The position numbers were made by a program, and so were the translations under genes. Shown here in pieces: positions 11,349-16,243 of a stretch of 21,339 nucleotides of DNA. Position 1 is the first letter of the stretch. Each line of letters starts with the position of its first letter. The stretch is from Candidatus Hydrogenedentota bacterium (lineage in GTDB: Bacteria > Hydrogenedentota > Hydrogenedentia > Hydrogenedentales > JAGMZX01). The notes beneath the pieces are model-generated. The model made no database searches and was not told where the DNA came from. It saw nothing but the letters and a program-made list of their open reading frames with translations. The stretch is taken from assembly GCA_029556545.1 (NCBI GenBank), contig JAKQEQ010000135.1, forward strand, positions 1 through 21,339, given 5' to 3'.

Positions 11349-13277
11349 TCAAAGCCCAGGGCAGAAACCGTCCTCCGTGCCATCCGCTGGACAGTAGTGA
11401 TAGCCGCCGGAATTGTAGAACTGGATGACCCGGAGAAGCTCCGTCAAAGCGATCGTCCAATCCGGCCCGCTCGGCGCATAATCGCTCGCGTGCGGACAAC
11501 AACTCGTGTCCGGGCCCGGGCCGGGCACGTAACCGTCTTCTGTGCTCGACGGATCCTCGGCGCAGCAGAGGCCGCCCGAATTGAAGAACTGAATGACCCG
11601 CAGCAGTTCGGTCAACTCGATCAGGTTGTTTTGGCTCTGATCCGCAGTGTGATACGAGCTGAAGCAGAAATCGCCTTCGCCCTCACCTTCGCCTTCGCCC
11701 TCGCCCTCGCCTTCGCCCTCGCCTTCACCTTCACCTTCACCCTCGCCTTCGCCTTCACCTTCACCTTCGCCTTCGCCCTCGCCTTCGCCTTCACCTTCGC
11801 CTTCGCCTTCGCCTTCGCCTTCGCCTTCGCCTTCGCCTTCGCCTTCGCCTTCGCCTTCGCCTTCACCTTCGCCTTCGCCTTCGCCTTCGCCTTCGCCTTC
11901 ACCTTCGCCTTCACCTTCACCTTCGCCTTCGCCTTCACCTTCGCCTTCACCCTCGCCCTCGCCTTCGCCTTCGCCTTCGCCTTCACCTTCGCCTTCACCT
12001 TCGCCTTCGCCCTCGCCTTCGCCTTCGCCTTCGCCCTCGCCCTCACCTTCACCTTCACCTTCGCCTTCGCCTTCACCTTCACCTTCACCTTCACCTTCAC
12101 CTTCACCTTCACCTTCACCTTCGCCTGCCTCACACGCATTGCACCAAATCGGAGAACTGATGGCTTCGTCCGGATGGCCGCCATGATTTCCGACATTTAA
12201 TCCCACGATCACATAATAATAATCTTGTGCATTGGGCGCGGGATCCGAAAAAGACACCGTCACTTCCGTGCCGCTGATATACCGCGTATCCAGATGCACG
12301 CCGTTGCGATATAAACGGACTTCCTGGATCAAATCGCCGCTGCCATCCCACGCGGACACGGTGAACTGAAGCGGAACCCCGGTCAGTTGAGAACCCATGG
12401 GGTAGCCGGAACAACGGAAATCAAGATATAAATCCTTGTTTTCCGTGCTGTAAAAACGCCGGTTGCGATAAGCGTCAATGATGGCTGCCCGGGTCAGTTC
12501 GGTCGCCAGCACGCCGGTCCGAAACGAAGTACTGGAACCCCATGTTGTGCCATGGTGATCAAAGCCTCCCGTCGCACCGACCCGCCAGCCTTTCGAATTC
12601 GCCAAATCATAATAGTTCTTGCCGGAACCATAAGCATTGACATAGTAATACTCGTCGTACCCATCGCCCTTATTGAAAGTCTCAATGCCCACCACTTGAT
12701 CGACAACAGAGCTATGAACGTCGAAATGGTTGAATTCCGTTCCAGCATCATCCTGGCGGCCTGGATGGTTGAACGTGGCAAACCCTTCCGGATGGTCGTC
12801 GAGCCAGTTGTAGAAAGACGGCAAGAGCGGGTGGGAAATGGCGCTGGCAAATTCGCCCGTATTATGAACGCAGATGTGCCCCATCAGCGGATGACTGTAC
12901 TCAAAGCCCCACAGGGTCACGAATTGCCCCGGCGCATTGAACGCCTGGGCGGTGTCTACCAACTCCTCCCATTTGCTGTCTTCCCAGGGCCACGTGATGA
13001 GATTCTCCGCGTGATCGGCAAGCGAAAAAAAATCCAACTGGGCCACGTCGCGCGCATGGGCATACGCCGCGTACGGACTGCCGTCCCCATCCGAAAGTGT
13101 ACTGTGATTGTGAAGATTACCGAAATAGATGTTGTACGGAACCCCGGCTTGCGTCGTCTGACTCCCGACGGGTGCGATTGCCTCTTGAGCTTCCGCTTGG
13201 ACGGCCCCTCCTAGTAGCAGAAGACACAGCCCCGCGGTAATGCCAAGGACCAAGCGCACATTAAGAAGAGTCTTCAT
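11349..13277 (-). CDS. Secreted PHP-domain metallohydrolase with Gly-Glu linker and EF-hand-like C-terminus
   Basis: A 642-residue exported protein. Residues 1-29 form a signal peptide. The PHP domain, of the CehA/McbA type, shows [15 protein letters not shown] (H56, H58), a D-H pair (D88, H89), E126, FNHP (H171), E199 and GGFDHHG (D240, H241). These are plausible ligands for a metal centre hydrolysing phosphoester or related bonds; the true substrate is unknown. A beta-rich domain follows (~285-377), then a (Gly-Glu)n linker (385-535). The tail has an EF-hand-like loop [12 protein letters not shown] (546-557) and a second degenerate copy near 602-613, each followed by LLRVIQF and Cys-bearing TEDG loops. 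The ATG at 13277 has a strong GGGGGAGG site and its own promoter. The tail nearly duplicates that of the beta-helix gene. Confidence 0.87.
11361..11495 (-). repeat. DNA copy A of the EF-hand-like 3' module
   Basis: By eye these 135 bp differ from 14351-14485 at only 9 positions, including one uninterrupted identical stretch of more than 40 bp. Both encode the last EF-hand-like half-repeat of otherwise unrelated proteins. This indicates recent module duplication or gene conversion. Confidence 0.85.
11673..12125 (-). repeat. Gly-Glu hexanucleotide repeat (151 residues)
   Basis: 453 bp of GAR-GGN codon pairs encode an uninterrupted alternating Gly-Glu stretch between the catalytic part and the C-terminal module of the PHP protein. 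Synonymous third-base changes are frequent, so the repeat is kept at the protein level, while tandem DNA repetition makes length changes likely. Confidence 0.95.
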
Positions 13278-13314
13278 GTGATCCTCCCCCTTCCAATACG
13301 TTCATCATCGTTCG

Positions 13315-13344
13315 ATTATACCATGAAACCGCCCGCGAAGTCCA
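13315..13344 (-). promoter_or_regulatory. Promoter of the PHP gene
   Basis: On the minus strand: TGGACT (13339-13344), an 18-nt spacer, then a perfect TATAAT (13315-13320). The expected start is near 13308, about 30 nt before the ATG. This suggests that the PHP gene is transcribed on its own rather than only from the operon upstream. Confidence 0.5.
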
Positions 13345-14317: not shown

Positions 14318-14338
14318 GAAAGCCTCCATGAGTTGCGC

Positions 14339-16243
14339 TCACGGGCCCGGGCAGAAACCGTCCTCCGTTCCATCCGCTGGGCAGTAGTGATAGCCGCCCG
14401 AGTTGTAAAACTGGATAATCCGGAGCAGCTCCGTCAAAGCGATCGTCCAATCCGGCCCGCTCGGCGCATAGTCGCTCGCGTGCGGCGCGCAACTGTGATT
14501 CGCGCCCGGCCCGGGCACGAACCCGTCCTCCGTGCTGCCCGGATCGTCCGCGCAATGGAACCCGCCCGAGTTGTAGAACTGGATAACCCGCAAAAGCTCG
14601 GTCAACTCGATGAGCCCATTCCCATTCTGGTCGGCGTTGTGTATCTCCGGCTCGCCCTCGCCTTCACCCTCGCCCTCACCTTCGCCCTCACCCTCACCCT
14701 CGCCCTCGCCCTCACCCTCGCCTTCACCCTCGCCTTCACCCTCGCCTTCACCCTCGCCTTCGCCCTCGCCCTCGCCGGTTGCCGGAACAGGATAGGGGTC
14801 GGAAAGAGCCGAGGTGTTTCCATCCACGGTTTGTGTTGCGGTCAGATTCATCCCCCCATAGGCAGTCAGGTCAACATCCAGAGTGAAATCGCCCCCGCCA
14901 TCGGCCACGGTTTTCCCGACAAACGTGCGCTGCCCCTCGCTTGCCGCGGCAAAAATCTCCACCGAGGCGGCGGCTGACGCCGTTCCGGACACGGGATTGA
15001 TGCCCGTGATGACTGGCGGCAGGATGCCGTCGTTTGCGCCGTCTTGTAGAACAATTTCACCCCCCTTGTTGCCGAAGATGGCATTCTCGTAGAGAGCGTT
15101 CAGGCGCGTCGAAGCGCCGGTAAGACGCACCCCGGCGCCTTCGTTGTCTGTGATGAGATTCGGCTCGCCGGGATTCGCCCCGCCGACCGTGTTCCCAGTG
15201 GATCCATCGGCAATCGTGATGCCGTCTCCGGCGTTGCCGAGGTCGCCGATTATGAGCGCACGCAAAGCCTTGCCCCAAGGGCTTGCGCCCATGTAGTTCC
15301 CCAAAATGTGGTTCCCATCGCTCTTCTCCAGATAGAGGGCTGACCCGGCATTGTCACAGAGGACATTCCCGAGGAACACGCTGTCGCCGCCTATCGTGTT
15401 GTTTGTGCTCATGTAGAGGTATATGCCGTGCAGCCCATTGCCAAGGGCCGTAAAGCCGTCCCCGTCCAGGCCGACAAAGTTGCTGGCAATCAGACAGTCG
15501 CTCACCGAGATGCAACGGATGCCATTGAAGAGGTTACCCACGATGACATTGCGCCCGGACGCGCCGCCGCCGCCGATAGTACAGTCCGTCAAAGTGTCAA
15601 TACTGACCCCCGTCCTGTTGAATCCGATAAGGTTTCCGCGAATCGTAACCCCGCTGGAGTTCGCCACGACAATGCCGGAATCCCCGTTGTGGAGAATCCA
15701 GTTCGCGTCCCCGCTGTTTGTGGAGCCAATGGCAAGATTGGTGGCGTTCTGCGCTATGATCCCATGAGAACCATTACTCTGATCCGTGCCCAGGTTGTCG
15801 GTTCCGATCCGGCATCCCGTCACCGTGCAATTGCCTGCGGAAATGGCCAGACCGAACAACGGAAAGTTGGTGATGCTAAGATTCCTGACCGATCCGCTGG
15901 TCCATAGGAGAAGTCCGCCGCCTTCGCCAATAATGTCCGTCCCGTCGATCGTACTGCCATTCCCCTCGATGCTTACGCGGCCCGGAAGATAGAACACGGC
16001 GTCCAACTCACTGGTCGGCCTGATGGTCAGGCCGCCGTTGATGGAAATAACGTGATCGCCCGAACTCTGCCCGTTGACGGCTAGTATCGCCTGCCGCAGT
16101 GACCCCGCGCCGCTGTCGTTGTTGTTGCTCACCGTGAAAGTGGCCGCCCCGGCCGTCGCCGCGAAGAACACGAGCAGCACCGCGGCATGAACATGAAGTT
16201 GGGGCCGGCTCCAGAGAGAATTGGAGACAATAAGCATACCCAT
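14339..16243 (-). CDS. Secreted parallel beta-helix protein with Gly-Glu linker and EF-hand-like C-terminus
   Basis: A 634-residue exported protein. After a signal peptide (cleavage near AGA-ATFTV), it opens with a CSLREA-like segment, [17 protein letters not shown]. It continues with repeated short strands of the NosD/pectate-lyase-like right-handed beta-helix type (for example [18 protein letters not shown] and NTIGGDS). Such folds often bind or cleave polysaccharides, but no catalytic residues stand out. A (Gly-Glu)21 linker (490-531) leads to an EF-hand loop [12 protein letters not shown] (538-549) matching the DxNxNGxIxxxE calcium pattern, and to a second degenerate half-repeat. The ATG at 16243 has GGAGG 7 nt upstream; the frame extends 15 codons further but without such support. 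A TTGACA promoter lies at 16375-16403. Confidence 0.85.
14351..14485 (-). repeat. DNA copy B of the EF-hand-like 3' module
   Basis: Partner of 11361-11495, with 126 of 135 positions identical by eye. It encodes the terminal half-repeat of the beta-helix protein. Most differences are silent. Confidence 0.85.
14651..14776 (-). repeat. Gly-Glu hexanucleotide repeat (42 residues)
   Basis: 126 bp encode 21 Gly-Glu pairs between the beta-helix part and the EF-hand-like module. This is the shortest of the three such linkers in the window. Confidence 0.95.

Follow-up and report, generated by a model that had tools for sequence, protein, structure and literature searches.

A recurrent, Cys-paired module with a dockerin-like predicted fold on exported proteins of Hydrogenedentota

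The window, that is the whole 21,339-nucleotide stretch of DNA analysed here (contig C58 of a 6.1 Mb Hydrogenedentota MAG, 96% complete), encodes two exported proteins that are otherwise unrelated and carry the same module at their C-termini (Table 1). Profile searches identified 111 places matching this module in the window's genome, and detected it in 41 of the 68 genomes of the phylum Hydrogenedentota, with up to 151 copies per genome. The module is rated a candidate dockerin-like attachment module with a sequence family of its own, absent from the protein-family catalogues checked. That it is a Hydrogenedentota-specific, dockerin-like attachment domain of exported proteins is the explanation we favour, and we hold it with about even confidence.

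Table 1. Features of the two module-bearing genes in the window
Feature	Position	Strand	Evidence
CehA/McbA-type PHP metallohydrolase, 642 aa	11349..13277	minus	NF038032 E 6.9e-24; signal peptide by heuristic
Gly-Glu spacer, PHP protein	11673..12128 (limits approximate)	minus	translation
PHP-protein module, 107 aa, residues 536-642	11352..11672	minus	E 4.2e-72, profile member
EF-hand-type loop 1, PHP module	11607..11642	minus	translation and loop conservation
Degenerate loop 2, PHP module	11439..11483	minus	loop conservation and half-versus-half profile match
NosD-like parallel beta-helix protein	14339..16288	minus	PF05048 E 5.7e-14
Gly-Glu spacer, beta-helix protein	14654..14779 (limits approximate)	minus	translation
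Beta-helix-protein module, 104 aa	14342..14653	minus	profile match and AlphaFold2 model
Canonical EF-hand loop 1, beta-helix module	14597..14632	minus	translation, EF-hand model match, conservation
Degenerate loop 2, beta-helix module	14429..14473	minus	loop conservation and half-versus-half profile match

The tails of the two proteins are 81% identical over ~104 aa, whereas outside the modules the proteins fall into different families (NF038032 CehA/McbA versus NosD beta-helix). This bears out an earlier, sequence-only reading of the window, which had claimed that two unrelated proteins end here in one shared module. The components named in that reading, a Gly-Glu spacer, a loop, a helix and TEDG/PGPG loops with cysteines, are likewise present in both window proteins. 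The beta-helix protein is 649 aa long from its GTG start and 634 aa from an internal ATG; its module covers residues 546-649 counted from the GTG, or 532-634 in the earlier numbering. The PHP-protein module belongs to a subtype with an additional Cys pair, and the beta-helix module does not. Since the genome holds so many further matches, with a conserved loop 1 and a Glu at its position 12, the module shared by the window proteins is not a chance likeness. Matches of the window proteins to the TrAA12, ser_rich and ClfB/ClfA families were rejected as artefacts of the Gly-Glu repeat. A Gly-Glu spacer without the module also occurs in the window, at 19438-21339.

Among the module counts listed, f1 and two genomes of f9 reached at least 76, and full counts for two of these genomes gave 151 and 95. 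G045 has 42 modules, G009 has 38, and f6 and f7 have 18-24; most f10 and f11 genomes contain 1-6, and nearly all f4 genomes contain none. Relatives were also sought by sequence in genome contigs, and among the best 80 of 260 those with names were Hydrogenedentota; the viral contigs searched contained no relative of the module. The sequence-only reading had suggested that a calcium-dependent surface-assembly or anchoring system may be undescribed here, and an undescribed module agrees with the databases consulted: no characterised family in Pfam or NCBIfam scored above its cut-off, and no model of either collection covered the tails of the window proteins at that level. When 95 members were scanned singly, Pfam returned just generic EF-hand models (best E 3e-6) and weak Dockerin_1 matches, and NCBIfam returned nothing meaningful. 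Weak FolE and S4 matches of members were discarded, the ELLRxIQ helix being their probable source. A profile search against the sequences of solved structures gave nothing significant. Within open-licence papers, a literature search for Hydrogenedentota and dockerin retrieved no paper linking the two; a paper under the name Hydrogenedentes covers general polysaccharide degradation and draws no dockerin link to the phylum.

Profile comparison indicates that the module, ~95-107 aa in length, is an internal duplication of two halves. The degenerate second copy described in the earlier reading proved genuine, the profiles of the two halves matching each other with an hhalign probability of 99.8 (E 8.7e-30). 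A strict EF loop 1 (D/N/S at positions 1, 3 and 5, a hydrophobic residue at 8 and Glu at 12) was present in 90 of the 95 longer modules of the window's genome, with frequencies of 92/93 for D1, 90/93 for D/N/S3, 92/93 for D/N/S5, and 93/93 for both I/V8 and E12. Just one of the 95 has two strict EF loops; loop 2 is longer than loop 1 and non-canonical, yet D, DW, I, L and E are kept. The canonical calcium-type loop named in the earlier reading holds for loop 1; loop 2 has no canonical EF pattern. Cysteines C34 and C55 are both present in 94 of the 95 longer modules and both absent from one, and the C91/C101 pair is complete in 91 and wholly missing from 3. The members of each pair are retained or lost together, the pattern to be expected if a predicted disulfide closes each hairpin. 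The Cys pair of the subtype (an N-terminal Cys and a CC motif) follows the same course, with both present in 37 modules, neither in 51 and a mixed state in 7 (Fisher 1.7e-18). The module ends in TEDGFCPGP and contains no hydrophobic segment.

AlphaFold2 gave a confident model for the beta-helix module of the window (pLDDT 90.8, pTM 0.81). A shorter relative was also modelled with confidence (pLDDT 94.7, pTM 0.84). Both models consist of a loop, a helix and a beta hairpin, two times over, each half comprising one EF-hand-type loop, one helix and one hairpin. In a Foldseek search of the PDB, dockerins occupied ranks 1 and 2 for the first model and ranks 1-10 for the second, at E values of 1 or more. 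A second structure comparison returned dockerins in 14 of the 14 rows with Z >=2 for the first model and in 10 of 11 for the second, and no other fold stood out in it, at low Z. The best neighbour was 5lxv_B in both cases (Z 3.8 over 61 residues at 3.4 A, and Z 4.2 over 60 residues at 3.0 A). The uniformity of this neighbour list, and not the low Z scores, gives a weak indication that the predicted fold is dockerin-like. The resemblance to dockerins noted in the sequence-only reading was thus recovered, dockerins being the closest PDB folds of both models, though with weak scores (Z <=4.2). On these models, a dockerin-like working of the module is plausible.

The module shares with type I dockerins (PF00404) a predicted pair of tandem calcium-type loop-helix units and a usual C-terminal place after a linker on exported proteins, but differs from them in several respects. 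It is ~95-107 aa long as against about 60 aa; position 12 of the loop is Glu, and the helix is an invariant ELLRxIQ; each helix is followed by a Cys-paired beta hairpin bearing TEDG; and the second loop is non-canonical. Matches to PF00404 stay below the Pfam cut-off: against 95 members the best E was 9.1e-5, E was <1 in 22 of the 95, and the gathering score was not reached. A profile built from 27 dockerins of the phylum aligned with the module over one 20-residue loop only (hhalign probability 52), which any EF-hand could yield. Seven places in the window's genome match Dockerin_1 above cut-off, none of them coinciding with a module. With the EF-hand families PF00036, PF13405 and PF13202 the module shares the canonical loop 1 (best member E 1e-4 to 3e-6), but the matches of the window proteins and of the first module are all below curated cut-offs; moreover, the model has no incoming helix ahead of the loop, being loop-helix as in dockerins, and the hairpins are obligatory.

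Export of the bearers, also claimed in the earlier reading for the two window proteins, was supported. Of 77 bearers, 70 begin with a signal-peptide-like stretch in their first 60 aa, versus 30 of 112 background ORFs from this genome. Most bearers that lack such a start are short fragments or come from broken genes, and there was no convincing cytoplasmic protein among the bearers checked. A 1473-aa ORF on C131, the start of which is uncertain, is an exception without a signal-peptide-like start. The N-terminal parts of bearers are diverse but of surface type, and include P-domain, beta-helix, LRR, Ig, PKD, BNR, CHRD, kelch and peptidase C25 domains, among others. Two kinds of bearer recur in low-copy genomes, namely a trypsin-like protease with the module (8 genomes of f10/f11) and SP-cohesin-module proteins. 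A conserved exported protein adjoins the module-bearing trypsin-like protease.

The position of the module bears on whether it could be a C-terminal signal for secretion or sorting that is recognised by a dedicated machine and processed on export. It would resemble the type IX CTD, PEP-CTERM/exosortase and GlyGly-CTERM/rhombosortase systems in being a C-terminal domain that is specific to a lineage, occurs on many exported proteins of unrelated kinds and often stands behind a low-complexity spacer, and its place at the extreme C-terminus in most cases, together with its strong conservation on unrelated proteins at up to 151 per genome, would suit such a role. The C-terminal place is indeed the usual one, nearly all modules of the window's genome stopping 0-5 aa short of the stop codon, but it is not the only one. 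Modules were found directly after the signal peptide (C116, C183, C63, C159, C140 and C75), internally (C19, C71, C131 and C170) and with their halves parted by an insertion (C131, C159 and C170), and those in L266, L267, L278 and L279 likewise break an obligatory C-terminal position. Since N-terminal, internal and split modules exist, a signal bound to the C-terminal position is unlikely. The spacer is no fixed part either: the earlier reading had included it in the module, and it is often seen, but C-terminal bearers can lack it: of 71, 50 have it within 60 aa. Unlike the three known signals, the module is predicted to be folded, Cys-paired and calcium-type; compared with PEP-CTERM, it lacks the tripartite motif, TM helix and basic tail, and the window's genome has no matching exosortase. 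Exosortase was not found in G000, G001 or the module-rich f1 and f6, and SprA (type IX secretion) was not detected in the 68 genomes by a search that had no positive control. The N-terminal, internal and split modules weaken the sorting half of the earlier proposal. We consider a secretion or sorting signal quite improbable.

The cohesin proteins of the phylum fit an attachment of the module to the cell. Ordinary dockerins are present in 56 of the 68 genomes and cohesins in 58, and the module coexists in genomes with genuine members of both families. A conserved operon of f1, f6, f9 and f10 (locus C33 in the window's genome) usually encodes two dockerin proteins, then two or three cohesin proteins. 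The first of these cohesin proteins has a C-terminal module in f1, f6 and f9, and in f10 it has a TM helix and a basic tail at its end, like other cohesins. The comparison covered 63 complete cohesin proteins: of the 50 without the module, 45 have a C-terminal TM, and of the 13 with it, 0 do (Fisher 8e-10, shared ancestry ignored). These 13 include three cohesin proteins with an N-terminal module and a free C-terminus. Because TM tail and module are mutually exclusive on cohesin proteins, the module probably takes the place of the membrane anchor there. The simplest reading is that both share one job, holding the protein on the cell. Counter-cases are the divergent f3/f4 modules L266, L267, L278 and L279 and C71 of the window's genome, which lie in proteins with a TM tail. 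Cohesin-module proteins are also present in genomes with just one or two modules (L270, L282), and the arrangement therefore looks old; support in the cohesin tree was too poor for dating the swap of anchor and module. The anchoring or docking role put forward in the sequence-only reading fits this use of the module instead of a membrane anchor, but the partner with matching distribution that the reading called for was not found.

The same cohesins raise the question of whether the module functions as a true dockerin and binds the conserved-operon cohesins, which would then be scaffoldin and membrane anchors. The dockerin-like predicted fold, the wide occurrence of cohesins and an operon in which cohesin-TM proteins adjoin the cohesin-module protein, as adaptor and anchoring scaffoldin do in cellulosomes, are all consistent with this. 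However, the operon is already supplied with ordinary dockerins as ligands, and cohesin number shows no significant tie to module number, being 1-7 in module-rich genomes and the same elsewhere. Furthermore, G009 (93% complete) has its 38 modules but no dockerin and no operon-type cohesin, with partial or weak cohesin-like matches only (45 and 34 bits). Because of this genome, the operon cohesins are probably not the receptor. We hold a true dockerin function to be rather unlikely. Not one genome proved rich in modules and dockerins alike, but a mutual exclusion of the two was dropped as evidence, since it does not hold when genera are compared (Fisher p 0.57), all dockerin-rich genomes belonging to one family, f4. 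Non-cellulosomal cohesin/dockerin systems are known, e.g., in ANME archaea (PMC9012536), but the Hydrogenedentota mass tag is, by comparison, a separate family and not a recognisable dockerin.

Among the 20 module neighbourhoods compared, which came from 17 genomes with a low copy number (1-6 modules), no shared neighbour was fit as a receptor. This would accord with a module that binds, in a calcium-dependent way, a non-protein surface ligand (LPS, capsule, S-layer glycan or extracellular matrix) or stabilises the protein, and the two-fold repeat, Cys pairs and conserved TEDG/PGPG loops would suit many ligands. The nearest folds are nevertheless dockerins, which bind proteins, and if the module were a plain stabiliser, exchange with a membrane anchor would not be expected. 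We regard a non-protein ligand or a stabilising role as unlikely.

The explanation favoured here, a dockerin-like attachment domain, would work as follows. An exported protein would be joined, often via the flexible Gly-Glu spacer, to a dockerin-like plug. This would consist of a loop-helix-hairpin unit and its tandem copy, would have a disulfide closing each hairpin, and would presumably hold calcium in at least loop 1. The plug would insert into a putative receptor on the cell envelope or on a surface scaffold, and docking would keep secreted enzymes, beta-helix proteins and Ig/PKD-type proteins on the cell. It would thereby do the work of the C-terminal transmembrane anchor used by other proteins of the phylum, and on cohesin proteins it would mount a socket into which ordinary dockerins fit, so that assembly would proceed in two steps. 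A wider version, in which plug and non-cohesin receptor form a surface-assembly system specific to the phylum, is offered tentatively; such a system would run parallel to cohesin-dockerin, would replace it in some lineages and could mount cohesins from which ordinary dockerin proteins hang in turn.

Hydrogenedentota is an uncultured phylum whose surface is little known, and one tag that marks some 20 to 150 exported proteins in each genome, in several families of the phylum, would open its surface proteome, and the evolution of this, to study. The module would add a new family to protein databases. If a receptor is found, the two would add an orthogonal plug-and-socket pair of calcium type to those used for building protein assemblies.

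Finally, local homogenisation was considered: neighbouring modules within 12 kb are mutual best matches in 8 of 92 cases versus 0.6 by chance, but this does not apply to the pair in the window, whose closest matches lie elsewhere.

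A conserved operon in the genome's own contig C33 encodes two dockerin and three cohesin proteins, and its equivalents were found in three further families of the phylum (f6, f9 and f10). It appears to be a non-cellulosomal cohesin-dockerin set shared throughout the phylum. One of its three cohesin proteins carries the module, and the EF-hand protein adjoining the operon itself ends in the module.

Dockerin_1 matches were numerous in two genomes of family f4, G018 (n = 63) and G050 (n = 47), from both of which the module was absent. In G018, a three-cohesin protein adjoins a dockerin gene (locus L304). 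These features possibly reflect a cellulosome-like system in Hydrogenedentota.

Features of the window and of locus L231 (contig C33 of the same genome)
Location	Strand	Feature
Window 432-8660	+	Giant DUF7948/SBBP beta-propeller repeat protein
Window 13409-14329	-	Protein with TAT-type signal, between the two module bearers
Window 19438-21339	+	Second CehA/McbA PHP protein, long Gly-Glu spacer
L231:5933-9715		Protein made almost wholly of EF-hands, with Gly-Glu linkers between
L231:9823-14616		Operon of two dockerin and three cohesin proteins

The Gly-Glu spacer also occurs apart from the module: in the second PHP protein of the window, whose gene is cut by the contig end, it is followed by a non-module tail of another type. 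Six contigs of the genome (C9, C34, C100, C124, C155 and C191) start inside the spacer, a few dozen bases ahead of the module. The repeat thus seems to break assembly, so that genes for bearers are frequently truncated and intact bearers are undercounted.

The DUF7948/SBBP protein ends in a transmembrane helix followed by RRR, resembling a PEP-CTERM tail; despite this, no exosortase (PF09721) was found in the genome. Apart from its TAT-type signal, the protein between the two bearers matched no Pfam or NCBIfam family.

A trypsin-like protease with a C-terminal module is conserved in families f10 and f11 (loci L268, L269, L271, L273, L274, L276, L277 and L281). In five of the genomes with these loci it adjoins an exported protein of ∼450 aa, and the one such neighbor scanned matched a 3-keto-disaccharide hydrolase model.
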